In this document: in pieces, positions 1,008 to 23,016 of the stretch
How positions within the stretch are numbered: position 1 is the first letter of the stretch
Layout: every line of letters starts with the position of its first letter
Assembly (NCBI GenBank): GCA_025058515.1
Contig: JANXDW010000030.1
Coordinates: 1 to 39,360 of the forward strand
DNA: 39,360 bases
Reading direction: 5' to 3'
From: Aigarchaeota archaeon
GTDB lineage: Archaea > Thermoproteota > Nitrososphaeria_A > Caldarchaeales > Wolframiiraptoraceae
The notes under the pieces: generated by a model
Database searches by the model: none
Seen by the model: only the letters and a program-made list of their open reading frames with translations
What the model was told of the DNA's origin: nothing
Made by a program: the position numbers and the translations under genes

Positions 1008-1823
1008 TTATTTTTCATTAGCGAATGCTACTATTCTCGCGAAGGCTGATTCACCATCTTGGAATTTGAATGGGAAGGCTCCAATAATGCATCTTCTATT
1101 GACTACTTTGCTTATTTCTCCTCCCATGTTTTCAGCGTGTAGTATCATGTGGGGAAAGAGTTTGAGATGCATTAGCTGATAGTTCTGCGGCCATGGCATA
1201 AGCTCTTCTATCTTTCTACCCCACTTCTTCTCTGCTTCAGCAACTAAGTCTGGTCTAGCTCTTCTAATTACAGTATTGAGTGGGTGGTCTGCTGACATAG
1301 CGTCAACACCTATCCATTTTATCTTCATATCTATACACCATTTTGCAAAGCTTTCATTTGGACCAGGATGCTTTACCATGTATCTAACTTCATCAGGTTC
1401 AGTTCCACACCAAGCGTATTTATGGTATCCAGTGTGTAGTATGAGTATGTCTCCTTTCTTAATCTCAACACCGCCATTTTTAGCTGCTTTCTCCACGGTC
1501 TCTGCAGTATAGATATCGTAGTCTCCGACATATGGAGAGATATCTACTATTACTCCTTCACCAACTAGGTATTCTTCTAATGGTAGGCTAGCTACGTCTT
1601 TTCCACCTGTTACAAAGTGCAGTTGGCTATCGAAGTGAGTTCCGAAATGGAGTGAGGTCTCTATGTATTGAGCGTTTACACCATGTTCTCCAAGAGTCTT
1701 GATCCAGTAGACTTTCATAGGTGGATACCACATAAAAGGCGGTTGCTTCCAACTAGTCGGTTGAGATAAGTCATAGATCTTAACTCTACTCCAATCTACT
1801 ATCTTACTCCAATCCATCACCAT
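1008..1823 (-). CDS. Cyclase-family (PF04199-type) metal-dependent hydrolase, kynurenine formamidase/isatin hydrolase-like
   Basis: HFGTHFDSQLHF matches the HGTHxDxxxHF metal motif; start set to MVMDWSKIVDW at 1823 because the upstream extension in the track ORF (to 1910) looks non-coding. Confidence 0.8.
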   Translation of the reverse strand: MVMDWSKIVDWSRVKIYDLSQPTSWKQPPFMWYPPMKVYWIKTLGEHGVNAQYIETSLHFGTHFDSQLHFVTGGKDVASLPLEEYLVGEGVIVDISPYVGDYDIYTAETVEKAAKNGGVEIKKGDILILHTGYHKYAWCGTEPDEVRYMVKHPGPNESFAKWCIDMKIKWIGVDAMSADHPLNTVIRRARPDLVAEAEKKWGRKIEELMPWPQNYQLMHLKLFPHMILHAENMGGEISKVVNRRCIIGAFPFKFQDGESAFARIVAFANEK

Positions 1824-1967: not shown

Positions 1968-2429
1968 GTGAAACAATATGTGAAGTTTGAAGGTAAGATG
2001 GTTTTGAATTCTCGTAGAGAAGATGTCTGGAACTTTATATCTGAACCTTCTAAGGTTATCGAGTGTGTGCCTGGTCTTGAAGAGTACTCTGTAGAAGAGG
2101 GGAAAAGAGTTACAGCTAAAGTTAAGGTAAGCATAGGGTTCATAAAAGGAACATTCCGTGCATCAAGTAGTGTGGTAAAAGAAGATCATCAAAATTATAC
2201 TGCTAAACTGAAATTGAGCGGTTCTGGTGTTGGAAGCGGTTTCGATGCACTCGTAGATTTAAAGTTAAACGAGCTAGAATATGGTACTGAGTTTATATGG
2301 TTAGCAGATGTAAATGTCTCTGGTCCTCTCGGTAGTCTAGCTAAACCAATGCTAGAAGGATATGTAAGAAAGATCGTCGACCAGCTTTTTGATTGCATTA
2401 AGCGTAAACTTACAAATTCAACTATTTAA
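1968..2429 (+). CDS. CoxG-like SRPBCC-family protein (carbon monoxide dehydrogenase subunit G family)
   Basis: MVLNSRREDVWNFISEPSKVIECVPGLEEYSVEE and central glycine-rich strand region typical of CoxG; directly upstream of XDH large subunit. Confidence 0.8.
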   Translation: MKQYVKFEGKMVLNSRREDVWNFISEPSKVIECVPGLEEYSVEEGKRVTAKVKVSIGFIKGTFRASSSVVKEDHQNYTAKLKLSGSGVGSGFDALVDLKLNELEYGTEFIWLADVNVSGPLGSLAKPMLEGYVRKIVDQLFDCIKRKLTNSTI

Positions 2430-2484: not shown

Positions 2485-4881
2485 TTGACCTTTAAGTATA
2501 TTGGAAGACCTGTACCACCTCAGGATGGATTCTACAAAGTTACGGGAACCGCTCAGTACACTCTAGATGTCGAGCTTCCTGGAATGCTATATGCTAAACT
2601 AGTCACTAGCACAGTACCTCATGCTAAGATTAAGAAGATCGATGTAAGTAAAGCATTACAAGTTCCCGGAGTAGTTAAGGTCGTAGTTGGTAAAGATTTT
2701 CCATATAGAGTTGGAATGTATGCTGGAGATAGAGACCTTCTAGCTATAGATAAGGTGAGGTGGGTTGGACACCCAGTTGCAGCAGTTCTTGCAGAAAGCT
2801 TAGAAGCAGCTGAAAAAGCTATAGACCTCGTTGATGTAGAGTATGAAGAACTACCTACGGTTTTTGATCCTTTAGAAGCTCTCTCACCAGATGCTCCATT
2901 AATACATGAAAAGATGGAGGAATATCGGCACTCACCTGCATTTAGGCCTATACCTGGAACAAATATTGCTAATAAGTTTACTCTAGTTAAAGGTGATGTA
3001 GAGAAAGGGTTTAGAGAAGCTGATGTAATCATAGAAGAGAAGTTTTACATACCTCACGTAAGCCACTGCTTCATGGAAGTGCACAACGTCGTAGCCCACT
3101 ACCATCTAGATGGTACTGTTGAGATATGGACGAGTTGGCAGAACGTTGCTCCCATCAGGCAGATCATGGCACTATCTCTCGGAATACCTCACAATAAGAT
3201 TATTGTGAAGATTCCGTATGTTGGAGGAGGATTCGGTGGGAAGGCAGGTTTAGGATGGGAGGCACTAGTTGCTATTCTTTCTAAAGAAGCAGGATACCGC
3301 CCAGTGAAACTAGTATTATCGAGGAAAGAACAATTCACTTCAGCTGCAGTTAGAGAAGGATTCTATGGTTTCGCTAAAGCGGGATTTAAGAAAGATGGTA
3401 GATTCATCGCATATGATGTTAAGTTTATTCTAGATGCTGGAGCATATGCAGACTACACCGTGAACGTTGGTAGAGCAGTCGGCTATTCTGCAGACGGTTG
3501 CTACGAGATACCCAACATAAGAGTAGAATCTCTAACTGTTTATACTAACAAGATTCCTACAACTGCTCTAAGAGGTTTCGGATACCCGGAAAGCCATTGG
3601 GTTCTAGAACAGATAATGGATAAGGCAGCTGAAAAACTAGGGATCGACCCTGCAGAACTTAGGAAGATTAATTTAGTTAAGCCTGGGATATCCGAGACAT
3701 GTACAGGTGAGAGATTGAGAGAAGACGCTGGAAACCCTCAGAAGGTATTAGAGGTATTACTGGAAGAGATTGGATGGGGTAAACCTTCTGAAAAACCTAG
3801 AGAACCTTGGAAGATAAGATCTAAAGGTTTAGCTTTATTCGTTAAAGGTCCAGCTCAACCTCCTAATGCTTCTGCATCAGCTATTTTGAAGTTTAACGAA
3901 GATGCAAGTATAGACCTCTTGATCGCTACTGGGAATTTCGGTCAAGGGACTGTGACAGCATTGATGCAGATCGTAGCTGAAGAATTCGGACTACCATTAG
4001 AGAAGATAAGAGTAGACTATATTCGAGATACTCATAAATCAGCTTACACGTGGCAGACAGTTGGAAGTAGAGGTTTATTCACAGATGGTATAGCAATACT
4101 TAATGCTATAGAAGATGCGAAGAAGCAGATATTCAAGATTGCATCAGAGGTTTTAAGATGTCCGGAAGACCATCTAGAGCTAGTAGATGGAGAGGTAAGA
4201 GTGAAAGGTAAGCCTTGGGAGAAGATACCTCTTCAAGATATAGTTATGGGCTATACTTACCCCAACGGCAATTCTATTGGAGGACCTGTGATCGGTAGAG
4301 GTGTATTCATGTCTACCCATACAACATATCTCGACCCTGAGACGGGTCAAGGAAATCCTACAATATTCCATACTTTTGGTGGAACGGCAGTAGAAATTGA
4401 GGTAAATCTTCTTACAGGTGAAGTCGAGGTCTTGAAAGGTGTACAAGTACTTGATTTAGGAAAAGTGATAAATCCACTACTGGTAGAGCAACAAGTGAAC
4501 GGAGGCTTCTTAATGGGTTTAAGTATAGGGTTATACGAACAGATAAAGTTTGATGAGAGAGGATGGGTTGTGAACCCCAACTTTACAAACTACTACTTAA
4601 TTAGAATAAAAGATATTCCTAAACAGATTATTTGGAAAACGGTTGAGACTCCTCAATCTGATGGACCCTATGGTGCGAGAGGTGTAGGTGAACTAACTAT
4701 GATAGGTGTAGCGCCAGCGATAGCTAATGCAATCTATAGAGCATTGAGAGTCAAGTTGAACGAGCTTCCAATGAGTCCTGAAAATATCTGGAAGGCTTTA
4801 AGAGAGCAGAGACCTGAGATTGTTGATGAAGCATTAAAGAAGTTTCTAGAATTTAAGAAGATGGTGGAGGTGAAAAAATGA
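2485..4881 (+). CDS. Xanthine dehydrogenase-family molybdopterin-binding large subunit (locus 1)
   Basis: KIPYVGGGFGGKAG, TALRGFGYPESHW, GNFGQGTVTALMQI, GPYGARGVGELTMI motifs; TTG start preceded by AGGAGG. Confidence 0.92.
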   Translation: MTFKYIGRPVPPQDGFYKVTGTAQYTLDVELPGMLYAKLVTSTVPHAKIKKIDVSKALQVPGVVKVVVGKDFPYRVGMYAGDRDLLAIDKVRWVGHPVAAVLAESLEAAEKAIDLVDVEYEELPTVFDPLEALSPDAPLIHEKMEEYRHSPAFRPIPGTNIANKFTLVKGDVEKGFREADVIIEEKFYIPHVSHCFMEVHNVVAHYHLDGTVEIWTSWQNVAPIRQIMALSLGIPHNKIIVKIPYVGGGFGGKAGLGWEALVAILSKEAGYRPVKLVLSRKEQFTSAAVREGFYGFAKAGFKKDGRFIAYDVKFILDAGAYADYTVNVGRAVGYSADGCYEIPNIRVESLTVYTNKIPTTALRGFGYPESHWVLEQIMDKAAEKLGIDPAELRKINLVKPGISETCTGERLREDAGNPQKVLEVLLEEIGWGKPSEKPREPWKIRSKGLALFVKGPAQPPNASASAILKFNEDASIDLLIATGNFGQGTVTALMQIVAEEFGLPLEKIRVDYIRDTHKSAYTWQTVGSRGLFTDGIAILNAIEDAKKQIFKIASEVLRCPEDHLELVDGEVRVKGKPWEKIPLQDIVMGYTYPNGNSIGGPVIGRGVFMSTHTTYLDPETGQGNPTIFHTFGGTAVEIEVNLLTGEVEVLKGVQVLDLGKVINPLLVEQQVNGGFLMGLSIGLYEQIKFDERGWVVNPNFTNYYLIRIKDIPKQIIWKTVETPQSDGPYGARGVGELTMIGVAPAIANAIYRALRVKLNELPMSPENIWKALREQRPEIVDEALKKFLEFKKMVEVKK

Positions 4882-5756
4882 GTTTTGGGTCTCCGTACTT
4901 CACTCTCCCGGAGTTCACTTACCATAAACCAAAGACATTGAGAGAAGCTTTAGAGCTCTTGGAAAAGTATGGAGATGAGGCAAAGGTAATGGCTGGTGGA
5001 GTAGGTTTAATCCCATTCATGAAGGAGAGGCTTATCTCACCAACTCATGTAATAGATATCAAGGAGATAGCAGAGCTGAAAAAGCTTGAATACAAGAAAG
5101 GTGAAGGATTGACTATTGGAGCTACTATAACCTTCTCAGAGTTAGAGAAATACCAATTACTAAAGGAGAAGTATAGAGCATTATACCAAGCAGTAAAGTT
5201 AGCTTCAGACAATATAATAAGAAATAGAGCTACATTGATAGGTAATATCTGTGAAGCAATACCTTGGGTTGATGGTCCAATACCATTGATCGCCTATGGT
5301 GCAGAAGTCGAGATAAAGAGTTTAGATGAAGTTAGAAGAACACCTGTCGCCGATTTTATTAAAGGACCTGTTGAGATCGACCTCAAACCTGGAGAGATCG
5401 TTACCTCGATCCACTTACCAGATATTCCTGAAGAAGCAAAAAGTGGATTCTTAAAATTTAACACAGGCTCTGAGTTCGCTCTACTCAATATCGCAGCCTA
5501 CCTCTTAATTACAGCAAAGAAGAAAGATGTGAGATTAGTATATGGAGCAATCTCCTCAAAGCCTGCAAGAGCACTTGAAGCTGAAAAGATCCTCTTAAGA
5601 GATGGAGATTTAAATGCTCTTATATCTATGGCAGCGATAAAAGCTTCTGAAGAACTTGAAGTTATCTCAGACGTTCTCGCTTCTGAAGATTATAGAAGAC
5701 ACCTCATTAAAATACTTACTATGAAGCTTTTGAAAGAGCTAGTAGAGGAGGTGTAA
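4878..5756 (+). CDS. XDH-family FAD-binding medium subunit (locus 1)
   Basis: AKVMAGGVGLIPFMKERL; NRATLIGNICEAIPWVDG; overlaps the end of the L-subunit gene by 4 nt. Confidence 0.9.
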   Translation: MSFGSPYFTLPEFTYHKPKTLREALELLEKYGDEAKVMAGGVGLIPFMKERLISPTHVIDIKEIAELKKLEYKKGEGLTIGATITFSELEKYQLLKEKYRALYQAVKLASDNIIRNRATLIGNICEAIPWVDGPIPLIAYGAEVEIKSLDEVRRTPVADFIKGPVEIDLKPGEIVTSIHLPDIPEEAKSGFLKFNTGSEFALLNIAAYLLITAKKKDVRLVYGAISSKPARALEAEKILLRDGDLNALISMAAIKASEELEVISDVLASEDYRRHLIKILTMKLLKELVEEV

Positions 5757-5758
5757 AT

Positions 5759-6232
5759 ATGGTTCACAAGTTGAGTTTGATAGTAAATGGAATTAAGAGA
5801 ACGGTTGAAGTTAAAGATAATGAAATTCTATTAGATGTATTGAGAGATAAGTTAAAGATAAAGAGTTTAAAGGCAGCATGTTGGCGTGGAGAATGTGGTC
5901 TATGTACAGTTCTATTGAATGGAAAACTGGTGAAGTCTTGTCTTGTTCTCGCTGTTGAGGTTGATGGTTCTGAGATTATAACTGTCGAAGGCTTGGTTAA
6001 AGATGGTGAATTATCACCGATCCAGAGAGCATTCATAGAACATGGAGCATTTCAATGTGGATTCTGTACACCTGCTTTTGTTCTCGCATCCCATCAACTA
6101 TTAATTGAGAACCCTAATCCATCAGAAGAAGAAATAAAAGAAAAGTTGGGCGGTATAATCTGCAGATGTGGTACTTACCTCGAGATCATAAAGGCGATCA
6201 AGAGCGCATCAAGGTTTTATCAAAAGAAGTGA
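5759..6232 (+). CDS. XDH-family [2Fe-2S] small subunit (locus 1)
   Basis: CWRGECGLCTVLLNG ... QCGFCTPAF ... CRCGTYLEI cysteine pattern. Confidence 0.92.
   Translation: MVHKLSLIVNGIKRTVEVKDNEILLDVLRDKLKIKSLKAACWRGECGLCTVLLNGKLVKSCLVLAVEVDGSEIITVEGLVKDGELSPIQRAFIEHGAFQCGFCTPAFVLASHQLLIENPNPSEEEIKEKLGGIICRCGTYLEIIKAIKSASRFYQKK
5930..5994 (+). repeat. 65-bp tract identical to the complement of 18740-18804
   Basis: gtgaagtcttgtcttgttctcgctgttgaggttgatggttctgagattataactgtcgaaggctt, read in both small-subunit genes. Confidence 0.95.
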
Positions 6233-6238
6233 AAGATC

Positions 6239-6412
6239 TTATAGTATTTTATCTAGCTTCTCTTTCAATCTTTTCTCTATGCTCGGTGGAGGTTGCCAGT
6301 TTACCTGTACTACCTCTATTCCTTGATCTTTAAGAGAACTGTAAAATATCTCTAAACCAATATTTACTATCTTCGGCTCTTCTCTAAAAAGCTTCTTAAC
6401 TTTATCACTCAT
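6239..6412 (-). CDS. Small 57-aa protein at the 3' end of the fdrA operon (absent from the supplied ORF track)
   Basis: Translation MSDKVKKLFREEPKIVNIGLEIFYSSLKDQGIEVVQVNWQPPPSIEKRLKEKLDKIL; AGGAGGGG Shine-Dalgarno overlaps the fdrA stop region just upstream. Confidence 0.75.
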   Translation of the reverse strand: MSDKVKKLFREEPKIVNIGLEIFYSSLKDQGIEVVQVNWQPPPSIEKRLKEKLDKIL

Positions 6413-6423
6413 CTGTACCCCTC

Positions 6424-8055
6424 CTAAACATCCAAGAATACTTTATACGCTTTTTTCAATTTCTCATCTGATATCTTACATCGTTTAGCCACTAAAGCTG
6501 ATGCAAAAGCCATTAATGCATTCGTTGGAAAGATTGTAACTCCTAAACTCTTCAACTTCTCTTCCTGTATTGAAGAATTCTGAGGGTCTGCTTCTGTTCC
6601 ACATACGTGACCCATTATAATTATATTTCTAGAATCTTTTTCAGCCAATCTTTTAGCTTCAATTATCGCTTCCTGCATAGCTCCAACTGGATCTGGATGA
6701 GCCCCATAACCTAGAACAAAGTCCATGGTTATTACTGCTACTTCAGGATCTTTAGCTTCTTCTATTAATCTTATCTTTCTGATCGTTGGATCTATCATTG
6801 GATGAGCTCTACCAGCTGTAAACTCTTCTTCCCCAAGGTCTATTACCGAGTGCATATAGCTTTTATAAGAATCTTCTAGCTTATACCTTGGATCGAGTGG
6901 TGCATTGCTGTAAACATCTTTACCTATTATTTCACGATATATCAAGAGGGATTCATACATTAATGTTCCACCCGTATAAAGAGCTCTAAGATATCTTTGA
7001 TTAGGTTTTAAATTCTTTGAAAGCATGTTGCAGAGCTTCTTCAGCTCAGAGAGTTTTAGAGAGATCTTCGCTTTAGAATCTTTAAATCTCTCCGGGTCGG
7101 TGAGCTTGATCATATCTAGTACGGCTGAGTGGAGGGTTCTAAATGAATGTATCCGCTTAGCTAATCTCTTCGGAGGAGTATACTTCTTAACACCTAGAAA
7201 ACATAAGACATATGGTTTCCTAGTCTCTTCTTCAATAAATCTTATAATCTTCTTTAATACAGACTCATCAGGAGGTTTCGAGATAACCATTATAGATTTT
7301 GTTTCTTCATCTTCTTCAAGATATTTAATACAGTCTAAAGTCATAATGCCTCCTACACTCTCTTTTACATCATTCCCCCCTACACCGAGACCTTGCGATA
7401 CTCCTAAACCAACTCTATCTAGAATTACGCTAACCTCTTGTAAACCTGTACCAGCTGCTGCAACTATCCCGATAGGACCTCTCCTTACCTTATTGGCAAA
7501 AGCTATAGCTTTACCGTTAATTATCGATGTTCCAGCTCCTGGTCCTAGAACAAGGAGACCACGCTCACTCGCATACTTCTTCAATTCTACTTCATCTTCT
7601 ATTGGTACGTGATCACTGAATAGATGAATATGTATTCCTCTCTCTAGAATTTTCAAAGCTACTTCTTTAACATACTGTCCCGGTATCGAGATAACTGCTA
7701 GATTTGTATCGGGTAAAGCTTCTAATGCGGATTCGATAGTGTAGTATGCTCTATCTAGAGAAGGTTGAAGACTTGTTAAAGGCTTCATCAACATATCTTC
7801 TACTGTTGAGATTATTTTCGGAAGTAGGCTTTCATCTCTAGTTCTTATAGCTAAGATTAAGTCATTTGAAGTTGCTTTTTTCCCTTCATCTGTTAAGAGA
7901 TTAAGCTTCTCTAAGATCTCTTTATTAGTAGCAGTACCCATCACTATAGCAGCATCCAATACACCATCCATTTTTTTGACTTCTTCAGATAACTGCATAA
8001 GCTGTAATGAATCTCTAAAGAAGTTAACCTTCACTATATTCTTAACGATATCCAT
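6424..8055 (-). CDS. fdrA: FdrA-like protein (succinyl-CoA synthetase-alpha-like fold; oxamate carbamoyltransferase-type subunit)
   Basis: IGIVAAAGTGLQEVSVILDRVGLGVSQGLGVGGNDVKESVGGIMT and MDFVLGYGAHPDPVGAMQEAIIEAK blocks; neighbours DUF2877 and DUF1116. Confidence 0.85.
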   Translation of the reverse strand: MDIVKNIVKVNFFRDSLQLMQLSEEVKKMDGVLDAAIVMGTATNKEILEKLNLLTDEGKKATSNDLILAIRTRDESLLPKIISTVEDMLMKPLTSLQPSLDRAYYTIESALEALPDTNLAVISIPGQYVKEVALKILERGIHIHLFSDHVPIEDEVELKKYASERGLLVLGPGAGTSIINGKAIAFANKVRRGPIGIVAAAGTGLQEVSVILDRVGLGVSQGLGVGGNDVKESVGGIMTLDCIKYLEEDEETKSIMVISKPPDESVLKKIIRFIEEETRKPYVLCFLGVKKYTPPKRLAKRIHSFRTLHSAVLDMIKLTDPERFKDSKAKISLKLSELKKLCNMLSKNLKPNQRYLRALYTGGTLMYESLLIYREIIGKDVYSNAPLDPRYKLEDSYKSYMHSVIDLGEEEFTAGRAHPMIDPTIRKIRLIEEAKDPEVAVITMDFVLGYGAHPDPVGAMQEAIIEAKRLAEKDSRNIIIMGHVCGTEADPQNSSIQEEKLKSLGVTIFPTNALMAFASALVAKRCKISDEKLKKAYKVFLDV

Positions 8056-8175
8056 AACTCTTCATTCTAGATTGGTTAATTCTATATCATAAACATTTCC
8101 AGATCATGATCTATCTTCTTAATCAATTATTACTAGCAAGGTAAATAATGTGCTTGATGGAGTATAGTTGAATCT

Positions 8176-8469
8176 TCATCCTCCTCCAATAATCTCTACC
8201 AAATCTATTACATCGATTGATATATTATCGGTCTCTGTTAGCGGGGTCTCCAACCCCTTTAAGAGCTTAATACTATGACCATTTACTAATATCATCAGAT
8301 TATCTCTTAATCTATTATCTTGGTAAACTATCTTTTTAAAATCTTCTCCAAATATCTTCGAGATATCTTCTATAAGCTCTCCAACATTCTTTGGTGTCTG
8401 ATCTAATATTATCTCATCTCTTCCGACAGCCTCTTTTAACCTTGAGTATAATCTAACCCTTATACCCAT
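8176..8469 (-). CDS. MoaD/ThiS-like beta-grasp protein
   Basis: 97 aa; MGIRVRLYSRLKEAVGRDEI start, ILVNGHSIKLLKGLETPLTETDNISIDVIDLVEIIGGG end with terminal GG. Confidence 0.82.
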   Translation of the reverse strand: MGIRVRLYSRLKEAVGRDEIILDQTPKNVGELIEDISKIFGEDFKKIVYQDNRLRDNLMILVNGHSIKLLKGLETPLTETDNISIDVIDLVEIIGGG

Positions 8470-8513
8470 ACCGTTAATGTAGATCTGATGTCCTCCATAA
8501 ATATTTTCTATCT

Positions 8514-9428
8514 TTACAGAGAAATATTTAGAACATCTTTTATCAACTTCTCCGTCAAGCCCCTACTCTTCAAGATATCTATAATTGATGCTAATCCAGT
8601 TACGACTCCTAGAGAAATATCTAAACCAGAAGTATGACCTCTCCTTACAAGCTGGAGAAGAGAATCTGTGAAGATCTCTTCATCTCTCAAGCTTAAAGAT
8701 GTTAGTAATTGATGAAGGTGTTCATCGTATAAACCATGCTGTGCATACTTTAAGAACATTCCACTAACCCAGTTAGTATAGTTAAATAAGACGTCCTCAT
8801 CCAATACTATCTTCGGTACTTGAAGTTCTTCATCTACTAAGTTTACAATACTTATAAATCCTAACAAGAAGTCATCTCCTGAAGGTGTGAACCCTCCACC
8901 TAATCCGAGTAGTGCTCTATATTCCTCAATCCTCTTAACAGCTTCTACATTCCTTCTTGAAAATGGGTAGACCACGTTTTTCAAGAACTCTCTAAACCCA
9001 TCCAATTCTAGTATCGATATACAACTCGATGAAATAGAATAGAGTATCATTATACTGTTTAACCCCTTCCAAAATAATTTTTCAAGTGAATCATCTACAT
9101 CTCTGATCTTAACTATCTCTATCGGTGTATAGATTTCAGCATCCCTTAACTCTATCTCCAGCTCTCCAACCCGGATATAAGAATCATCTACTTCTACTTT
9201 ATCTCTTACTTTAACATAAGATTGGAAAGAGCGGTTTAAACTATCTTGAGAAGTGTTTATAGTATGAGGTGAACGATTATCTTTCCTGGTTACTATTATC
9301 ATCTCTCCATCCGCTTCGAGATATAATGTATTGGGAAATACATGGTGGATTACGGGTTCATAAATGAGATCATCTAAGATCTCCTTAGATCTTTTCCCAA
9401 TTGTAGAGGCATTGAGTCTATATACCAT
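8514..9428 (-). CDS. DUF2877-family protein (YlbF/AllH-like)
   Basis: LLGLGGGFTPSGDDFLLGFISIVN signature; start chosen at ATG 9428 overlapping the DUF1116 stop. Confidence 0.8.
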   Translation of the reverse strand: MVYRLNASTIGKRSKEILDDLIYEPVIHHVFPNTLYLEADGEMIIVTRKDNRSPHTINTSQDSLNRSFQSYVKVRDKVEVDDSYIRVGELEIELRDAEIYTPIEIVKIRDVDDSLEKLFWKGLNSIMILYSISSSCISILELDGFREFLKNVVYPFSRRNVEAVKRIEEYRALLGLGGGFTPSGDDFLLGFISIVNLVDEELQVPKIVLDEDVLFNYTNWVSGMFLKYAQHGLYDEHLHQLLTSLSLRDEEIFTDSLLQLVRRGHTSGLDISLGVVTGLASIIDILKSRGLTEKLIKDVLNISL

Positions 9429-10686
9429 ACTCTTCAACAAATGATTCGAAAGCTTTCTTGAATACTTCGAATGGGAAAGATACTATACCTGCACCTATCT
9501 GACCTATACCTGGTTCTTTATGAGCAATACCTGTGTTTATCGTTGGAACGATACCTGTCTTTAGTATCTTTCTAATATCTATCCCTGTAGGTGTTCCTTG
9601 AAAGTTCAGATAAGGTATCGTGAAATACTTATGCTTCGTATACGTTATCTCATACATCTTGGTGGTTATCTCAATCGCTATCTGAACGCTTCCACCTACC
9701 CATGAAACTATAGCTGGAGCTGCGGCCATAGCGAAGCCACCGAACCCAGCGGTCTCTGTGATCGAGCTATCTCCTAAGTCTGGGTTAGCATCTGCTTCAG
9801 AAAATCCTGGAAACCATACGCCTTTAGGAGTTGGAGCAGGAGCTGTAAACCATCTATCTCCTAACCCGCTAACCCATATTCCAGTCTCAGTACCATTTCT
9901 AGACATAACAGTTACGATCGTACTATACTTAATGTTGTGAGAAGCCAATGTCATCGCTTTGGCAGACGCCATCCCTAAGTTTAATGTTGTAAAATTGTTT
10001 CCAGCTAGAAAGTTATATACTTCTCTTATCGTCTGTATACTGAACCCTGTATCCATCATGTATGGTGTAATCTCTTTTAAGAGAAGACTTGTAGCAGCAT
10101 TATACCTATTGTGGCAATCGTCGCCCATCTGTAGTGCTTGAGCGATAATACTCTTAAAAGATACTCCACCCTTATCTTTTACTATCTCTCTAATCACTGC
10201 TTGGAGTAGCGGAGCGACCGTCGACTCGATCCATCTAAGTCTATCTATTACCTCTTTACTATATGCTCCATATCGTAAGACTTTCCCTATCCCTTCATTA
10301 AAATTCGTATATGTTCTATTACCATATCTTTTATCATATATTTCATATACAGGCATTCTCGGAGAGATTATCCCAGCCATGGGTCCGACGGCATTATGGA
10401 TATGGGTAGGTTCTAAGACAACTTTACCAGATGTAACAAGTTTCTCAGCTTCTTCAGGAGTATCCGCCCATTCTTCATATATTATAGCACCTATTATCGC
10501 ACCTTTCATAGGTCCCGCAGCTTTCTCCCATGTTAGAGGAGGCCCTGCATGAAGCAGTAAGTAATCCTTCATTCCAGGTATCTTTTCTTTAGCGATACCT
10601 ACATCAACCCATATAGGATCAGACTCCATCATTCTTTCAACAGCTTCTCTATTAGCTTTCTCAATCTCATCTTTTATCGAAGACAT
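9418..10686 (-). CDS. DUF1116-family protein (YlbE/AllG-like)
   Basis: HAGPPLTWEKAAGPMKGAIIGA; MGDDCHNRYNAATSLLLKE; MSRNGTETGIWVSGLGDRWFTAPAP. Confidence 0.85.
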   Translation of the reverse strand: MSSIKDEIEKANREAVERMMESDPIWVDVGIAKEKIPGMKDYLLLHAGPPLTWEKAAGPMKGAIIGAIIYEEWADTPEEAEKLVTSGKVVLEPTHIHNAVGPMAGIISPRMPVYEIYDKRYGNRTYTNFNEGIGKVLRYGAYSKEVIDRLRWIESTVAPLLQAVIREIVKDKGGVSFKSIIAQALQMGDDCHNRYNAATSLLLKEITPYMMDTGFSIQTIREVYNFLAGNNFTTLNLGMASAKAMTLASHNIKYSTIVTVMSRNGTETGIWVSGLGDRWFTAPAPTPKGVWFPGFSEADANPDLGDSSITETAGFGGFAMAAAPAIVSWVGGSVQIAIEITTKMYEITYTKHKYFTIPYLNFQGTPTGIDIRKILKTGIVPTINTGIAHKEPGIGQIGAGIVSFPFEVFKKAFESFVEEYGI

Positions 10687-10998: not shown

Positions 10999-11925
10999 GT
11001 GGGAGGACCTGTTACGATAAAGAAGAGAGTTGATACTGTTAATCTTCTACGTGAAGAGTTGAAAAAGAGTGAGATCATTATTGCACCTGGAGTTTTCAAT
11101 CCATTATCTGCAATGTTAGTTGAGAGGATGGGGTTTAAGGCTGTATACGTTTCTGGGGCAGCTGTAACAGCTTCTCTTGGATTACCAGATATTGGGTTGA
11201 TAACAATGGATGAGATGGTTAGAGTGGTTAAGTATATTGTAGACTCTATAGATATTCCAGTTATCGTGGATGCAGATACTGGTTATGGAGAAGCGTTAAA
11301 TGTGGTTAGAGCGGTTAGAGAGTTCGAGAAAGTGGGAGCATCAGCTATCCAGATAGAAGATCAAGTGCTCCCGAAGAAGTGCGGACACTTATCTGGTAAG
11401 AAGCTTATCGAGCCACTTGAGATGGCGAGGAAGATTAAAGCTGCTGTAGAAGCTAGAGTAAACCCTGATCTTATAATAATTGCTAGAACAGATGCTAGAG
11501 GGGTTAATGGTTTTCAAGATGCTGTAGAGAGAGCGACGCTATACATAGAGGCTGGTGCAGACGTAATCTTTCCAGAGGCTTTAGAATCTGAAGAAGAGTT
11601 CATAGAGTTTGCAAAGAAGGTTAAAGCTCCATTACTAGCTAATATGACTGAGTTCGGAAGATCTCCAATCCTATCCTTCAAGAGATTAGAAGAGATAGGG
11701 TATAAGCTTGTTATATATCCCGTGACGTTGTTGAGGTTGGCGATGAACGCTATGAGAGAAGGATTGATAAATTTGATGAAAGATGGGTCTCAAGAAAAGA
11801 TGCTCTCTAAAATGTTTACCAGAAAAGAGCTGTACGATCTAATATATTACGATGAGTATGAAAGCTTTGATAGAAGGATTGCTGAAGAAGTTGAGAAGAA
11901 GGTGAGTAGAACATGGATAAGATAA
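10999..11925 (+). CDS. Isocitrate lyase/PEP mutase superfamily lyase (methylisocitrate lyase/dimethylmalate lyase-like)
   Basis: VDADTGYGEALNVVRAVREFEKVGASAIQIEDQVLPKKCGHLSGK, with KKCGH active-site motif. Confidence 0.87.
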   Translation: MGGPVTIKKRVDTVNLLREELKKSEIIIAPGVFNPLSAMLVERMGFKAVYVSGAAVTASLGLPDIGLITMDEMVRVVKYIVDSIDIPVIVDADTGYGEALNVVRAVREFEKVGASAIQIEDQVLPKKCGHLSGKKLIEPLEMARKIKAAVEARVNPDLIIIARTDARGVNGFQDAVERATLYIEAGADVIFPEALESEEEFIEFAKKVKAPLLANMTEFGRSPILSFKRLEEIGYKLVIYPVTLLRLAMNAMREGLINLMKDGSQEKMLSKMFTRKELYDLIYYDEYESFDRRIAEEVEKKVSRTWIR

Positions 11926-13274
11926 CCCGCATCTTAGCAGAATATACTCTTGACATTGATTACAACAAGCTTCCACACGAGACTATACATGAAGTAAAGA
12001 GGAGGATAATAGACTCGATTGCGGTAGCCTTTGCAGCTTACTATGCTGACCCAGTTATTAAAAGCCGTCGAGTTGCTTCACTGTATACTAGTAGTAGTGG
12101 TGGAAGAATAATCGGCACAAGGTATAAGATCTCACCTGACTGGGCTTCATTTATAAATGGAATAATGATTAGATACCATGATTACAACGATACATATCTC
12201 TCTAAAGAACCTCTACACCCTAGCGATATGATAGCTGCAGCCTTCGGCCTCGGAGACTCATTAAACTCTTCAGGAAAAGATATTATTACGAGCATAGCTA
12301 TTGGTTATGAAGCATCAGTAACATTCTGCGATGGCGGTAGCTTAAGAAAGAGAGGATGGGACCACGTAAACTTTCTAGGTATAGGTAGTACTGTTCTCTC
12401 CTGTAAGCTTTTAAGATTAGACTTAGAGAAGATACAACACTCTCTCTCAATCTACACTGTTCCCCATGCTTCTATGAGACAGACAAGAGTTGGAGAACTA
12501 AGTATGTGGAAGGGTGCTGCAGCAGCGAACTCTACGAGAAACGCTGTCTTTGCTTCACTACTTGCAAAAGAAGGGTTTACTGGACCTTTCAAACCATTTG
12601 AAGGTGAGATGGCTTTTATAAAACAGCTCTTACAAGGAGATTTCGATACAAGTGTATTAACATCGATGGAGGATAAGAAGCCTCCGAGGAGAATTCTTGA
12701 TACATACATAAAAAAGTATCCTGTAGAATATCATGCTCAGACTGCTGTTGAGGCTGTCTTGAAGTTAAGAGAACAAGTCCACTTAAATGATGTAGAGAAG
12801 ATCTTGATTGAAACCTTCCAAGCAGCTTATGATATAATTGGTCCAAAAGATCTTGAGAAATGGGATCCCCATACTAAAGAGACAGCAGACCATTCTTTAA
12901 TGTGGATAGTCGCTGCTGCTCTAGTCTGGGGAAATATAACTATCGAGCATTATCATGATATTAGAAATCAGCATGTACTCTCTTTGATGAGGCGTATGGA
13001 GGTAAGGGTTGACCCAGAAATCAATGAAAAATATCCAAGATCTTTCTCAAATAGAATAACTATAGTAACTAAAGATGGGAGGAGGTTTTCAGAAGAAGTA
13101 GAGTATGCTAGAGGTCATCCTAAGAATCCTATGACCGATGAAGAAGTAGAGAAGAAGTTTGATGAATTAACGAGATACTTGATCCCAAGAGACCAGAGAA
13201 ATAGATTAGTACAGAAGATCTGGAGGTTGGAAGACTACACTATAGAAGAAATAATTGAAGAGACTGTAATCTAA
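11913..13274 (+). CDS. MmgE/PrpD-family protein (2-methylcitrate dehydratase-like)
   Basis: RRIIDSIAVAFAAY, NGIMIRYHDYNDTYL, HPSDMIAAAFGLGDSL; start overlaps the lyase gene by 13 nt. Confidence 0.87.
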   Translation: MDKITRILAEYTLDIDYNKLPHETIHEVKRRIIDSIAVAFAAYYADPVIKSRRVASLYTSSSGGRIIGTRYKISPDWASFINGIMIRYHDYNDTYLSKEPLHPSDMIAAAFGLGDSLNSSGKDIITSIAIGYEASVTFCDGGSLRKRGWDHVNFLGIGSTVLSCKLLRLDLEKIQHSLSIYTVPHASMRQTRVGELSMWKGAAAANSTRNAVFASLLAKEGFTGPFKPFEGEMAFIKQLLQGDFDTSVLTSMEDKKPPRRILDTYIKKYPVEYHAQTAVEAVLKLREQVHLNDVEKILIETFQAAYDIIGPKDLEKWDPHTKETADHSLMWIVAAALVWGNITIEHYHDIRNQHVLSLMRRMEVRVDPEINEKYPRSFSNRITIVTKDGRRFSEEVEYARGHPKNPMTDEEVEKKFDELTRYLIPRDQRNRLVQKIWRLEDYTIEEIIEETVI

Positions 13275-13471: not shown

Positions 13472-15055
13472 ATGAGTGAGAAGTTGTTTAAGTCTACTGA
13501 AGAATTAGTAAATGAGTTGTATGAGATGCGGAAGAAGTCTCAACTAGGCGGTGGGGTAGAAGCTATAGAGAAACAACATCAAGGGGGAAAGTTAACGGCA
13601 AGAGAGAGGATCGACTTGTTACTAGATAAAGATAGCTTCATGGAGCTAGATTCATTCATGGTACATCGATCTACTGAATTCGGGATGGATAAGAGGAAAG
13701 TACTAGGTGATGGAATAGTTACAGGTTTAGGGAGGATAGATGGTAGATTGGTCGCTGTATTCGCTCAAGACGCTACATTCATGGGAGGATCTATAGGAGA
13801 GATCCACGCTAACAAGATCACTAGGATTCTAGACCGTGCGATGGAGCTGGGTGTCCCGATAATAGGGTTGAATGATTCAGGAGGTGCACGGATTCAAGAA
13901 GGAGTTGCATCTCTACATGCTATAGGAGAATATTTTGCAAGAAATGTTAGAGCATCAGGTGTAATCCCACAGATCACTGTTATAATGGGACCGTGTGCAG
14001 GAGGCGCAGTGTACTCTCCTGCTCTAGGAGACTTTATAATAATGGTGGATAAGACAAGCTATATGTTCATCACTGGTCCTCGTGTCGTTAAAGCTGTGAT
14101 GGGAGAAGACGTCTCTTTCGAAGATCTAGGCGGATCCCATATCCATTCGAGGATCTCGGGTGTAGCCGATTTTACCGCACCTAATGATGTTGAAGCATTA
14201 AATCTCGTTAGAAGATTGATATCTTATCTACCATCTAACTGTCTTGAAGATCCACCATTTATCGAGACTGGAGATCCAGCAGATAGGGTAAATGAAGAAT
14301 TAAACTATATAGTACCTGCTGATCCGAGGAAGAGTTACGATATAAGAGATTTAATCAACATAATCTTCGATAGAAACTCTTTTCTAGAAGTTAAGAAGGA
14401 TTTTGCACCTAATGCTGTGGTAGGGTTTGCGAGGTTAGCTGGAGTTTCAGTAGGGGTTGTCGCAAATCAGCCGGCTTCACTAGCTGGTGTATTAGATATA
14501 GATTCATCAGATAAGATTGCTAGGTTCGTTAGATTCTGTGATTGCTTCAACATACCGCTTATAACTTTCGTAGATGTTCCTGGATATCTACCTGGGACGA
14601 AGCAAGAGCATGGAGGTGTAATAAGACATGGAGCAAAAGTAATCTATGCATATGTTGAAGCAACCGTTCCGAAGATCTCTATTGTTGTTAGGAAAGCATA
14701 TGGTGGAGCTTACATAGCTATGTGTAGTAAGAGTCTAGGAGCTGACGTCGTCTTCGCTTATCCGACAGCTGAGATAGCGGTTATGGGACCTGAAGGTGCA
14801 GTAGAGATAATATATAGGAAGGAGATAGATTCTGCTGAACCATCTAAGAGAGATGAGGTTATATCTAATTTAATTAAAGAGTATAGATTCAAGTTTGCTA
14901 ACCCTTATGTTGCTGCAGGTCTAGGATATATCAATGCAGTAATAGAGCCTAAAGAGACTAGACCGATGCTTGTCAAAGCTTTAAAGATGTATATGAAAGG
15001 TAAGAGGAGCTTAGTGTCTAGGCTTCCGAAGAAACATGGGAACATGCCATTATAG
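13472..15055 (+). CDS. mmdA: Acyl-CoA carboxyltransferase subunit (methylmalonyl-CoA decarboxylase alpha/propionyl-CoA carboxylase beta-like)
   Basis: GGKLTARERIDLLLDKDSF, GGARIQEGVASLHAIGEYF, GPCAGGAVYSPALGDF, VDVPGYLPGTKQEHGGVIRHGAK. Confidence 0.9.
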   Translation: MSEKLFKSTEELVNELYEMRKKSQLGGGVEAIEKQHQGGKLTARERIDLLLDKDSFMELDSFMVHRSTEFGMDKRKVLGDGIVTGLGRIDGRLVAVFAQDATFMGGSIGEIHANKITRILDRAMELGVPIIGLNDSGGARIQEGVASLHAIGEYFARNVRASGVIPQITVIMGPCAGGAVYSPALGDFIIMVDKTSYMFITGPRVVKAVMGEDVSFEDLGGSHIHSRISGVADFTAPNDVEALNLVRRLISYLPSNCLEDPPFIETGDPADRVNEELNYIVPADPRKSYDIRDLINIIFDRNSFLEVKKDFAPNAVVGFARLAGVSVGVVANQPASLAGVLDIDSSDKIARFVRFCDCFNIPLITFVDVPGYLPGTKQEHGGVIRHGAKVIYAYVEATVPKISIVVRKAYGGAYIAMCSKSLGADVVFAYPTAEIAVMGPEGAVEIIYRKEIDSAEPSKRDEVISNLIKEYRFKFANPYVAAGLGYINAVIEPKETRPMLVKALKMYMKGKRSLVSRLPKKHGNMPL

Positions 15056-16150
15056 ACCGAGATATTGTGGGATGAGAGATAGTACGACGGCTCCAGCGAT
15101 GACGGATGCTATCTGACCTCCAGTATTTGTAGCTATAGTATGCATCAGTATCCAGTTGTCTGGATCTTCTTGACGGGCAATTAGGTGAGCTGTTCTCGCA
15201 GCCATTGGAAAAGCTGAGATACCGGTAGCTCCAAGCAATGGGTTTATCTTTCCTCTAGTTAGATAGTATGCTATCTTTCCTGCAATAAGCCCGAACGATA
15301 TGTCTGTGATGAAAGCGATGACTCCAAGTCCGAAGACCATTAAAGTTGAGAGATTTATGAATTTCTCTGCAACCATAGTTCCACCAATACTTAAACCTAG
15401 TAGAAGAGTTACTATATTTGATAATTCATTTTGTGCAGATTTTGACAACCTTTCAACTACACCACACTCTTTTAAGAAGTTTCCAAACATTAATGCTCCT
15501 ATCAGAGGCAAACCTTTTGGAGCTAGCAACCCTATTACGATCGTTACAATTATTGGAAATATGATCTTTAGTATTCTTGAGTAAGTTCCCTGCTTATAAG
15601 GCATTCGTGCTAGCCTCTCTTTCTTACTTAAAAGTAGTCTTGAGAGTGGTACTATCAGGAGTGGAGCTATTGATATGTACATGTAGGCTGAGACAGCGAT
15701 TGGACCAAGCAGGTCTTCTGCATATAGTGATGCTACGTAAATGGCTGTGGGGCCATCCATGGCGCCGATTATACCTATGCTAGCGGCTCTCTCAGGTGTG
15801 AACCCCAATGTCAAAGCTAGGATCATTGTTAAAGGTATCCCAACTTGTGCGGGTATGGTCAATAGTAGTACCCACGGCATCCCAAAGAGAGGACCGAAGT
15901 CTATCATGGCCCCTATACCGATGAAGATTAGTATCGGGAACAGCTCTGTAAGTATTCCGTATTCGTATAGGTACCTGATGAATCCGCCTACTTCCATCAA
16001 TTCACCGTGGGGAATGTTTACTAAGATTGCTCCAAACCCGATAGGTATCAAAAGTAGCGGTTCATACCCTTTCTTGATCGCTAAGTAAATGAGTATAAAC
16101 CCGACGGTAATCATGATTATATTGCCAGCATATGCTGTCAAAAACTCCAT
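15050..16150 (-). CDS. OadB/MmdB-like membrane subunit of a Na+-transporting decarboxylase
   Basis: Multiple hydrophobic segments; FIGIGAMIDFGPLF, GAMDGPTAIYVASLYAEDLLGPIAVSAYMYISIAP, NPLLGATGISAFPMAAR. Confidence 0.88.
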   Translation of the reverse strand: MEFLTAYAGNIIMITVGFILIYLAIKKGYEPLLLIPIGFGAILVNIPHGELMEVGGFIRYLYEYGILTELFPILIFIGIGAMIDFGPLFGMPWVLLLTIPAQVGIPLTMILALTLGFTPERAASIGIIGAMDGPTAIYVASLYAEDLLGPIAVSAYMYISIAPLLIVPLSRLLLSKKERLARMPYKQGTYSRILKIIFPIIVTIVIGLLAPKGLPLIGALMFGNFLKECGVVERLSKSAQNELSNIVTLLLGLSIGGTMVAEKFINLSTLMVFGLGVIAFITDISFGLIAGKIAYYLTRGKINPLLGATGISAFPMAARTAHLIARQEDPDNWILMHTIATNTGGQIASVIAGAVVLSLIPQYLGL

Positions 16151-16162: not shown

Positions 16163-16579
16163 TTACTCAATCTCAATTAACATATCTTCTGCATTAACAG
16201 AAACCCCTTCTTGAACATAGATCCGCTTTACCCTACCAGATATAGGAGAATATATCATATTCTCCATCTTCATACTTTCTAAGACTAAGATGGGATCTCC
16301 AGCTTTAACTGAATCACCTTCTTTACATTTTATCGATACGATGGTTCCAGGGATCGGTGCTCTCACTATACCTCGTGCTTTAACTGTCTCAACTTTAGCT
16401 TCTTGAATAGGAGTGGGAGCTGCTCTCCGTTCCTCTCTATGTGTTGGAGTGGTTGGAATAGGTGTAGGCGGAGGCATAGTAACTACTTCTTCTACACCGA
16501 CTTCTTCAACCTCAACTTCAAATACCTTACCACCTACTGTTACTCGGAACCTTCTCTTCAACTCAATCCACCCCTCCAT
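16163..16579 (-). CDS. Biotin carboxyl carrier protein/domain
   Basis: VRAPIPGTIVSIKCKEGDSVKAGDPILVLESMKMENMIYSPISGRVKRIYVQEGVSV; ESMKM biotinylation motif after a Pro/Thr-rich linker. Confidence 0.92.
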   Translation of the reverse strand: MEGWIELKRRFRVTVGGKVFEVEVEEVGVEEVVTMPPPTPIPTTPTHREERRAAPTPIQEAKVETVKARGIVRAPIPGTIVSIKCKEGDSVKAGDPILVLESMKMENMIYSPISGRVKRIYVQEGVSVNAEDMLIEIE

Positions 16580-18507: not shown

Positions 18508-18978
18508 TTACTTCTCAGTTTTGGTAACACTTAGTATTGCATCTATTATTGATCTATAGCCTGTACATCTACAGAGAACTCCATTCAATGCTTCTATTAC
18601 TTCTTCTCTTGAAGGTCTTGGATTTCGGTTGATTAACCAGTGACCAACGATTAAAAATGCTGGTGTGCAGAATCCACATTGTAGTGCTCCATGTTCTATG
18701 AATGCTCTCTGCAATGGTGTAAGTTCACCGTTTCTAGCTAAGCCTTCGACAGTTATAATCTCAGAACCATCAACCTCAACAGCGAGAACAAGACAAGACT
18801 TCACAGGTTCTCCATTTAATAAAACTGTACATAATCCACAGTCTCCTCTTTCACATGCTCTCTTCGTCCCCTTCAGTTTAAGCTCTTCTCTAATAAGCCA
18901 TAGAAGTGTTTTATTTGGCTCTACCTCAAGAGTTTTCTCTTCCCCGTTTATCTTAAAAGTTATCTTCTTTCTCTCCAA
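18508..18978 (-). CDS. XDH-family [2Fe-2S] small subunit (locus 2)
   Basis: CERGDCGLCTVLLNG ... QCGFCTPAF ... CRCTGYRSI. Confidence 0.93.
   Translation of the reverse strand: MERKKITFKINGEEKTLEVEPNKTLLWLIREELKLKGTKRACERGDCGLCTVLLNGEPVKSCLVLAVEVDGSEIITVEGLARNGELTPLQRAFIEHGALQCGFCTPAFLIVGHWLINRNPRPSREEVIEALNGVLCRCTGYRSIIDAILSVTKTEK
18740..18804 (-). repeat. Inverted partner of the 65-bp tract at 5930-5994
   Basis: Reverse complement identical over 65 bp; flanking bases differ. Confidence 0.95.
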
Positions 18979-19848
18979 CTAGACCACCTCCACCAATTGT
19001 TTCAGTAATCTTCTAGTTAAGACCCTCACTAGATTTAATCTATATTCTGCACTACCTCTTACATCTGAGATAGGTGAGACTTTTTCTACAGCAACTTGAA
19101 CTGCTCTCTCTATCTTTTCTTCAATAGGTCCAGGTTTTGCAAATGCTTCTTCTGCTTCCTTAACCCTTAGAGGTGTTGGAGCAACACTGGAGAAAGCAAG
19201 CCTAATCTTTATCTCTCCTCCTTCTCTATATCCTAATCCAGCAACTCCAACGACTGAGAGATCTTCACTTCGAACTCTCATCATCTTTAGATATCTTCCA
19301 AAAGACTTCTTTGGAGGTTCAGGGACTAGTACTTCCTTCACCATCTCCCATGGTTTTAATACAGTCTTCTTCACACCGGTAAAGAAATTCTCTAAAGGTA
19401 TCTCTCGAGAACCTTCTTTACTTACAATCTTCACTCTAGCATTTAAGACTAGTAGAGCGGGTGAACTATCACCAGCAGGGCTTGCAGTACATATATTTCC
19501 TACGAGGGTTGCTCTATTTCTTAAAACCATATCTCCAATGGTCTTTACTGCTTCCCACAATACAGAATATCTATCTTTGATAACTGGATTTTCTAGAATG
19601 TTCTTGAAAGTTACGGTTGCACCAATGGTTAATCCTTCTCCTTCTCTATACTCAAGCTTACCAAGTTCTGGGATCTTTTTGATATCGATGATGTACTTTG
19701 GCTTCTCCAACTTCTCTCTTAGCGATACTATCAAGTCTGTTCCTCCAGCAAGAATCTTAGCTTGATCTTTGTATCTATCTAGAAGCTCAAGCAGTTCTCC
19801 AAGAGTTCTAGGAGATGAATAATCAAGTTTTGGAAGCATCTTCTTCAC
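18979..19848 (-). CDS. XDH-family FAD-binding medium subunit (locus 2)
   Basis: AKILAGGTDLIVSLRE; NRATLVGNICTASPAGDSSPALL. Confidence 0.92.
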   Translation of the reverse strand: MKKMLPKLDYSSPRTLGELLELLDRYKDQAKILAGGTDLIVSLREKLEKPKYIIDIKKIPELGKLEYREGEGLTIGATVTFKNILENPVIKDRYSVLWEAVKTIGDMVLRNRATLVGNICTASPAGDSSPALLVLNARVKIVSKEGSREIPLENFFTGVKKTVLKPWEMVKEVLVPEPPKKSFGRYLKMMRVRSEDLSVVGVAGLGYREGGEIKIRLAFSSVAPTPLRVKEAEEAFAKPGPIEEKIERAVQVAVEKVSPISDVRGSAEYRLNLVRVLTRRLLKQLVEVV

Positions 19849-22275: not shown

Positions 22276-23016
22276 CTAAAACTCTATCTCAAGTTTTGAA
22301 GTCGGTTTTAGCGGTATGGTCTTCTTTAACATGTCTTCTGGAACAGGCCTCTCGCCCATCAAGCCTGCTGCTTGTAGATATGGCTTCACTGTCTTATTCC
22401 ACTGTTCTCTCGTTATGTAGTATACCCTTGCTCCTCCGAGTTCATGTTGAACCTCGGGCCATGGCTTAGTTGTATGTTGAAGTCTGAAACCAATTCTAAA
22501 TCCGAATGGACTTTCAAAGGTTGCCCACCATTCGTTTACACCTACTACGTCAAGAGCATGTTCAACTTTTGCAGCGTAGAGGAATATTCCAAGTCTCTCA
22601 GCACGTTTGAAGACTATCGTGTGTAGACTGATGCATACATTCTCATTGAAGAATCTATGGTTAACAATACCCATCAATTCTCCTTCCTTATCGGTAGCCA
22701 CGATTACATATCCATCTTTCAATCTATTCTGTGCCCAAGCTAGAATCTCAGAATATGTTCGAACGGCGACAAGATGGTAATAATCCTTATCATATTTAGA
22801 GTCTATGAGCAGCTTCAATGTTTGAAGCATAGCTGGCGCCTCATCTTTAGTTGCAGGTCGAACTATTATCGGCTCTCCACTCTTTAATCTATAGATTTTC
22901 GGTGGGAAAGGCTTCTGGAATCTTTCATCAGGTGGAGCACCTCTAAGAAACTCTTCAATCTCATCAACAGAGAATTTAAACTCTTCAAAAGATACGGGGA
23001 CCGCGGGCTTAACCAT
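22276..23016 (-). CDS. GNAT-fold-like protein
   Basis: IIVRPATKDEAPAMLQTL ... GYVIVATDKEGELMGIVNHRFFNENVCISLHTIVF layout; only 112 nt upstream of the XDH locus-2 start. Confidence 0.5.
   Translation of the reverse strand: MVKPAVPVSFEEFKFSVDEIEEFLRGAPPDERFQKPFPPKIYRLKSGEPIIVRPATKDEAPAMLQTLKLLIDSKYDKDYYHLVAVRTYSEILAWAQNRLKDGYVIVATDKEGELMGIVNHRFFNENVCISLHTIVFKRAERLGIFLYAAKVEHALDVVGVNEWWATFESPFGFRIGFRLQHTTKPWPEVQHELGGARVYYITREQWNKTVKPYLQAAGLMGERPVPEDMLKKTIPLKPTSKLEIEF

Follow-up and report, generated by a model that had tools for sequence, protein, structure and literature searches.

Which compound an AllFGH-type carbamoyltransferase would act upon away from allantoin genes is the question raised by a locus of a Candidatus Geocrenenecus MAG (Caldarchaeales), the genome of a heat-loving uncultured archaeon. 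The window analysed here, a stretch of 39,360 nucleotides, holds five consecutive minus-strand genes (6239-10686) coding for AllG, AllH, a MoaD-like protein, FdrA/AllF and a 57-aa ORF, and profile matches bore out this arrangement, which the original prediction had read from the sequence alone. The activity of E. coli AllFGH is the reversible conversion of oxamate and carbamoyl phosphate (CP) into oxalurate and Pi (PMC11326118).

An AllFGH gene set with a divided AllF

All five genes are kept in three other Geocrenenecus genomes, with identities of 57-92% for four of them and 40-60% for AllH, which excludes a chance arrangement. The family assignments proposed originally (PF06545, PF11392 and FdrA) held in profile searches. 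AllG (YlbE/DUF1116; 9418..10686, minus strand) matched PF06545 (E=1.6e-86) and PDB 3clq (E=4e-121), and AllH (YlbF/DUF2877; 8514..9440, minus strand, likely ATG at 9428) matched PF11392 (E=4e-22) and overlaps the AllG stop, as had been predicted. The AlphaFold model of AllH had a pLDDT of 94.9, and a fold search with it against the PDB gave no match at E<=0.001. The AllF body (6424..8055, minus strand), with CoA-binding and ligase-CoA domains (PF02629, PF00549), matched PDB 3dmy (E. coli FdrA, E=3.6e-67) and positions 2-501 of the FdrA model NF004760, with 419 bits, slightly under the 433 cut-off. Because ~120 bp separate the MoaD-like gene from AllF, the latter may have its own promoter.

The 57-aa ORF (6239..6412, minus strand), whose Shine-Dalgarno sequence AGGAGGGG overlaps the AllF stop as previously claimed, matched NF004760 positions 504-553 (E=8.9e-7) and thus corresponds to the C-terminus of the FdrA model missing from the AllF match. 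Judged by this alignment, the ORF, whose presence but not identity had been recognized, is the detached C-terminal module of an AllF split in two (AllFc). The module was free-standing in ~31 loci, fused to AllF in E. coli, fused to AllG in three loci and located inside AllF-AllG fusions in two; the predicted fold of a natural AllFc-AllG fusion (pLDDT 93.0) renders it as a small beta-alpha-beta-alpha unit. The window encodes no carbamate kinase, as stated in the original prediction, and the search elsewhere in the genome that it had proposed located one on another contig (G000:C46:45089-46024, 416 bits vs a 358 cut-off). All components of an AllFGH-type complex are consequently present, namely AllF, its C-terminal segment as a separate ORF, AllG, AllH and a genomic carbamate kinase, and the family matches identify AllG, AllH, AllF and AllFc as a putative AllFGH-type carbamoyltransferase, in agreement with the homology to E. 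coli FdrA/YlbE/YlbF put forward originally. The archaeal set and the E. coli AllFGH OXTCase with AllK share their subunit families, the C-terminal module of AllF, the invariant core residues of AllG and the presence of a genomic carbamate kinase. They differ in that the archaeal AllF is split, the kinase is unlinked, allantoin genes are missing, XDH-type hydroxylases and a PF04199 hydrolase are linked, and AllG belongs to a separate clade.

A linked cyclase, molybdenum hydroxylases and the AllG tree

The PF04199 hydrolase and two XDH-type Mo-hydroxylases had been overlooked in the original interpretation. The former, a metal-dependent 'cyclase' that we propose to be a ring-opening imidase (1008..1823, minus strand; PF04199 E=3.8e-35), was given a start set by homologs, the ORF itself extending to 1910. 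Its residues H59, H63, D65, H69, H219 and E231 correspond to the six metal ligands of kynurenine formamidase and were invariant in 18 rows of a sequence alignment in which H219 and E231 were weakly aligned. The HxxxHxDxxxH motif and the later His and Glu ligands are common to kynurenine formamidase and isatin hydrolase, from which the window protein differs as a member of its own subfamily (~270 aa, members 46-95% identical to it) that occurred with AllF/AllG or a carbamate kinase at the loci covered here. Among 61 relatives sampled, the cyclase occurred in 12/12 AllG-positive genomes, comprising every AllG-bearing Caldarchaeales genome sampled (Fisher p=5e-11 by genome and 5e-6 by genus, kinship ignored). 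Two further matches were found among these relatives, one in a genome (G001) with AllF, AllFc, XDH and cyclase, whose contig ends at AllF with the usual place of AllG beyond the contig end, and the other (G038) a distant cyclase in a different gene context.

Both hydroxylases have the three subunits and the catalytic Glu near the C-terminus typical of the XDH type. Hydroxylase A (2485-6232, plus strand) comprises a large subunit (2485..4881; PF02738/PF20256/PF01315), a FAD subunit (4878..5756; PF00941 E=4e-47) and a 2Fe-2S subunit (5759..6232; PF01799 E=2.6e-28), and is adjoined by a gene for a CoxG-like protein (1968..2429, plus strand; PF06240 E=1.8e-27). Hydroxylase B (18508-22163, minus strand) comprises a large subunit (19845..22163) of the same subfamily as that of A and of Clostridial uracil-permease clusters, a FAD subunit (18979..19848; NF041019/NF043083 matches) and a 2Fe-2S subunit (18508..18978; PF01799 E=1.3e-28). 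The archaeal and Clostridial large subunits, A being assigned by both tree and signature, formed one subfamily (support 98). Its members retain the catalytic Glu, and the positions of bovine E802 and R880 are occupied by Ala and by Arg/Lys, respectively.

In the AllG tree, the window protein grouped with cyclase/XDH-linked homologs, outside the separate clade (support 100) of allantoin-linked AllG from E. coli and loci L100, L104 and L105, which is marked off by fixed differences in sequence, N193/Q188 of the MGDxxH motif among them. Allantoin genes accompanied only that clade in the loci examined and none were found near any archaeal AllG locus examined; a role of the archaeal AllFGH in allantoin breakdown is disfavoured by both gene context and tree. 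In Clostridia, the cyclase adjoins AllFG in clusters that also contain this XDH subfamily, PucR and genes for a UraA-type uracil permease, a nitrilase, a CoA-transferase and a carbamate kinase above cut-off. This permease scored 375 bits with the uracil model vs 236 with the xanthine model, and matched UraA in the PDB at 5e-87 vs 1e-16 to 1e-19 for uric acid-xanthine permease. Archaeal loci included a cytosine deaminase above cut-off (L056), weaker CodA homologs (L025, L026) and PnrA-type nucleoside ABC, NCS1 or NCS2 transporters. The gene context suggests nucleobase, probably pyrimidine, catabolism and not allantoin degradation.

A proposed oxidative pyrimidine pathway and its alternatives

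The known oxidative pyrimidine pathway consists of uracil dehydrogenase, barbiturase and ureidomalonase, with barbiturate and ureidomalonate as intermediates. We propose, at about even chances, that the genes across ~1.0-22.2 kb specify an oxidative, ATP-yielding variant with AllFGH as third step, whose substrates, reaction order and direction we infer; the observations themselves are the gene identities, the AllF split, linkage conserved across archaea and Clostridia, the genomic carbamate kinase, the conserved cyclase ligands and the XDH-subfamily residues. An XDH-type Mo-hydroxylase would oxidise uracil to barbiturate, its paralog perhaps converting thymine to 5-methylbarbiturate, and the PF04199 hydrolase would open the cyclic imide to ureidomalonate. 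AllFGH, running in the catabolic direction (acylurea and phosphate to amide and carbamoyl phosphate), would then phosphorolyse ureidomalonate to malonamate and carbamoyl phosphate, in keeping with the acylurea phosphorolysis inferred in the original prediction, and the unlinked carbamate kinase would turn carbamoyl phosphate into ATP, NH3 and CO2. Malonate or methylmalonate would be processed in other loci by an amidase or nitrilase plus a CoA-transferase and, in the window, possibly by a Na+-pumping biotin decarboxylase, for which a biotin-dependent, MmdA-like carboxyltransferase (13472..15055, plus strand; TIGR01117 790 bits, cut-off 999), a Na+-translocating decarboxylase beta subunit (15050..16150, minus strand; TIGR01109 381 bits, cut-off 191) and a biotin carrier protein (16163..16579, minus strand; PF00364 E=3.4e-24) are encoded. 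The proposal and the known pathway have both intermediates and a Mo-hydroxylase-type first step in common; they differ in the ring-opener, which would belong to PF04199 and not to the AtzD/TrzD barbiturase family, and in the last step, which would yield carbamoyl phosphate by phosphorolysis where the known pathway releases urea by hydrolysis. More tentatively, and with somewhat less than even confidence, this may be an undescribed pathway common to thermophilic archaea and Clostridia, in which PF04199 would be a new barbiturase, AllFGH a ureidomalonate (or methylureidomalonate) carbamoyltransferase, and uracil or thymine breakdown would yield ATP via carbamoyl phosphate. A literature search of an open library retrieved nothing on point tying barbiturase, ureidomalonate or uracil dehydrogenase to carbamoyl phosphate or AllFGH.

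Several observations count against a pyrimidine substrate. Genome searches matched neither NCS1 or NCS2 permeases nor AMP phosphorylase, so that the source of uracil is not evident, and we know of no PF04199 enzyme acting as a barbiturase. AllFGH occurs without a nearby cyclase in two loci (L056, L053), and linkage to PrpB, PrpD and the decarboxylase is limited to Geocrenenecus and a few others. Xanthine permease models outscored uracil permease models for the NCS2 proteins of archaea and for one type from Clostridia, and the linked CoA-transferase scored best, under cut-off, as CoA:oxalate CoA-transferase, which would fit oxamate or oxalate. These last two points also favour a true oxamate (oxalurate) carbamoyltransferase releasing oxamate and carbamoyl phosphate, in which case the cyclase would open a cyclic oxalyl urea such as parabanate, or else other organisms would supply oxalurate by breaking down purines or allantoin. 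A relative within PF04199, isatin hydrolase, opens an alpha-keto cyclic amide, which would suit such a role, and the E. coli complex performs this very reaction (PMC11326118). Nitrososphaeria-related archaea were also reported to carry AllFGH, one of these sets sharing its contig with a bmpA-nupABC transporter, and the allFGHK genes of nitrifier-related archaea and comammox were interpreted as serving oxalurate use, unlike our reading; the main text of that report mentions no cyclase, and the passages covered here do not describe the XDH/cyclase module or a split AllF (PMC12625717). We nevertheless consider the oxamate alternative unlikely, if the strongest competitor: it leaves the linkage to UraA-type permease and cytosine deaminase unexplained, the genome has no match to the AllD family PF02615, and the distribution of allantoin-pathway genes and the separate allantoin-linked AllG clade speak against it.

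A purine branch, with the XDHs acting on xanthine or hypoxanthine and AllFGH decarbamoylating a not-yet-named purine-derived ureide, would agree with the XDH family matches, the pbuX-like permeases of several loci and the E. coli uric-acid cluster, in which an XDH homolog accompanies YgeW and carbamate kinase (PMC12507026). The XDH subfamily is, however, distant from E. coli XdhA (<=35% identical) and XdhD, and purine-ring-opening genes were not seen adjoining the loci, making this branch quite improbable. The old annotation of FdrA as an acyl-CoA ligase, by which the set would activate an acid with CoA, draws on the CoA-binding and ligase-CoA domains of AllF and its similarity to SCS-alpha. 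It is disfavoured to the point of being very improbable by the carbamoyltransferase activity of the purified E. coli complex (PMC11326118) and by a lack of conservation next to a putative SCS-like phosphohistidine site (placed by motif and not by structure), where a comparison of 40 AllF sequences gave H, S, Y, A, R and other residues.

If the pyrimidine reading is true, these would be genes for anaerobic oxidative pyrimidine catabolism, providing nucleobase-derived ATP by substrate-level phosphorylation, and the carbamoyltransferase whose genes were assigned only in 2024 would gain a second substrate class, correcting the automatic labelling of archaeal allFGH as allantoin enzymes. The Clostridial copies, as in the cultured Lutispora saccharofermentans, make this reading testable in an ordinary laboratory.

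Further genes of the window

The MoaD-like ubiquitin-fold protein (8176..8469, minus strand; TIGR01687, 67 bits vs a 49.5 cut-off), one of seven encoded in the genome, ends in GGG and has homologs near XDH/AllFGH in four other loci (L018, L048, L054, L055). Its candidacy as a carbamoyltransferase subunit was rejected because it is missing from most AllFGH loci and accompanies XDH, XdhC and MocA genes; it probably serves molybdenum-cofactor supply for the linked Mo-hydroxylases, outside AllFGH. Methylisocitrate lyase PrpB (10999..11925, plus strand; TIGR02317 408 bits, cut-off 354), linked in 2/3 sister genomes, could possibly belong to a downstream propionyl-CoA branch and is followed by a MmgE/PrpD protein of the 2-methylcitrate dehydratase family (11913..13274, plus strand; PF03972 E=5.8e-72). 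A conserved protein (22276..23016, minus strand), GNAT-like by eye only, matched no Pfam or NCBIfam model and is 45% identical to a protein of another locus (L048:17338-18087); its homologs adjoin AllFGH in many archaeal loci.

Gene set and division of AllF

The original prediction of five minus-strand genes at 6239-10686 holds, and profile matches identify them as encoding AllG (PF06545), AllH (PF11392), a MoaD-like protein, AllF/FdrA and a 57-aa ORF. The window is the entire contig C30 of a 1.47-Mb MAG, and its AllG shares 88-92% identity with those of two genomes of the same genus (G002 and G003). The FdrA model NF004760 (NCBIfam) is matched at positions 2-501 by AllF and at 504-553 by the 57-aa ORF, so FdrA is split in the window. 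Searches with a profile of this C-terminal module (AllFc), built from the small proteins and carrying the motif N-[IV]-G-x4-F...Q...V-x-W-x-P, found it free-standing in about 31 loci. E. coli, L105 and L108 have it as the C-terminal end of AllF; L049, L050 and L107 have it as the N-terminal end of AllG; and in the single-chain fusions of L100 and L104 (999 and 1003 aa) it is the segment joining AllF to AllG. These placements suggest that, within the complex, AllFc is positioned between the AllF and AllG subunits. AlphaFold predicted AllFc to be a compact beta-alpha-beta-alpha unit in a natural AllFc-AllG fusion. Judged from homology, it is nearly certain that an AllFGH-type carbamoyltransferase with a split AllF is encoded here. 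AllH (8514-9440), predicted with a pLDDT of 94.9, matched no PDB fold at E≤0.001 and DUF2877 may thus be a fold with no solved structure so far.

MoaD-like genes number seven in the window genome. Placement between AllH and AllF is limited to Geocrenenecus, and in other loci MoaD adjoins XDH, XdhC and MocA genes; molybdenum-cofactor supply is the simplest reading of the window MoaD.

Cyclase and Mo-hydroxylase neighbours

The original prediction did not include two upstream neighbours, a hydrolase of the PF04199 "cyclase" family at 1008-1823 and an XDH-type Mo-hydroxylase at 2485-6232, or a second such hydroxylase (18508-22163). Kynurenine formamidase and isatin hydrolase are also PF04199 members, and the ligand residues of the former are unchanged across 18 relatives. 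AllG was present in 12 of 61 sampled relatives, and each of these 12 also encodes a cyclase matching at E≤1e-30 (Fisher p=5e-11 when counted by genome, 5e-6 when counted by genus, uncorrected for descent). Only two other genomes had cyclase hits: G001, with AllF, AllFc, XDH and cyclase on one contig that stops at AllF and hence does not cover the usual AllG position, and G038, with a distant cyclase alone in a different gene context. The cyclase adjoins carbamate kinase in G008; in G035 it has AllF on one side and a PnrA-type nucleoside ABC transporter on the other.

Both window hydroxylases fall with other archaeal and Clostridial large subunits in one subfamily (support 98), featuring GGFGxKAG, the catalytic Glu and a basic residue at the site of bovine R880. 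In a midpoint-rooted AllG tree from a quick search, allantoin-linked rows including E. coli formed a single clade (support 100) and the window row lay within an archaeal clade of cyclase/XDH-linked rows (support 97). Five positions were fixed differently between the two sets, with only four allantoin rows; one lies in the MGDxxH[N/Q]R motif.

A TudS-related protein (43-849; NF045597, 65 bits, under cut-off) adjoins the cyclase and is kept in Geocrenenecus. A conserved minus-strand protein (22276-23016), GNAT acyltransferase-like by eye, had no Pfam or NCBIfam match; its homologs adjoin AllFGH in L017, L018, L023, L025, L048, L050, L052, L054 and L055. The right-hand limit of the catabolic cluster is marked by the genes immediately after it (23141-26711), which encode Orc1/Cdc6 and the two replication factor C proteins.

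Candidate pathway and related loci

E. coli AllFGH interconverts oxamate plus carbamoyl phosphate (CP) and oxalurate plus Pi (PMC11326118), and AllK converts CP to ATP (PMC9843812). By analogy, the archaeal complex would catalyse the equivalent reaction with an acylurea substrate, R-CO-NH-CO-NH2, as originally predicted; that it acts on an acylurea is very probable, and the carbamate kinase sought elsewhere in the genome was found on a different contig. Hydroxylase and cyclic-amide hydrolase would yield an acylurea from a pyrimidine, in a putative route from uracil through barbiturate and ureidomalonate to malonamate and CP. Malonamate could then give malonyl-CoA via an amidase or nitrilase and a CoA-transferase, encoded in sister loci. 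Most tentatively, the MmdA-like carboxyltransferase, Na+-decarboxylase beta subunit and PrpB/PrpD of the window could process malonyl- or methylmalonyl-CoA.

We consider membership of an oxidative pyrimidine pathway about evenly balanced. Oxalurate or purine breakdown is retained as a rival, because several locus permeases score as xanthine permeases and an oxalate enzyme is the best-scoring assignment for the locus CoA-transferase; moreover, NCS1 and NCS2 permeases and AMP phosphorylase were searched for in the window genome and not found. Archaeal allFGHK in nitrifier-related MAGs had already been noticed and interpreted as oxalurate use (PMC12625717). The pyrimidine route is consistent with the Clostridial UraA-type permease, so assigned because it scored 375 bits against the uracil permease model versus 236 against the xanthine model and matched UraA in the PDB at ~5e-87 versus ~1e-16 to 1e-19 for uric acid-xanthine permease.

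Among archaeal loci, L048 combines carbamate kinase, cyclase, NCS2 permease, AllG-AllFc-AllF, XDH, MoaD, AllH, XdhC and MocA; L051 combines CoA-transferase, amidase, XDH, cyclase, AllF-Fc-G-H, NCS2 and NCS1 permeases and carbamate kinase; and L056 holds a cytosine deaminase (above cut-off), NCS1 permease and XDH. The cyclase occurs in 15 of about 24 Clostridial AllG loci examined; several of those 15 add the same XDH subfamily along with a UraA-type permease, PucR, CaiB-type CoA-transferase, nitrilase and carbamate kinase. The three Clostridial loci with allantoin genes (L100, L104 and L105) have neither cyclase nor XDH.

Another acylurea is perhaps the substrate of the archaeal AllFGH at L053:9323-15962, which lacks cyclase and XDH; its neighbours there are an NCS1 protein resembling cytosine permeases and an isochorismatase resembling biuret hydrolase. 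A divergent third AllF/AllG class, without cyclase, XDH or allantoin genes, occurs in Clostridia (L108:6975-10124, L109:8636-11630 and L110:8808-11815), with acetate-kinase-like, SDR and IlvD-like genes nearby, by eye, in L108 and L109.
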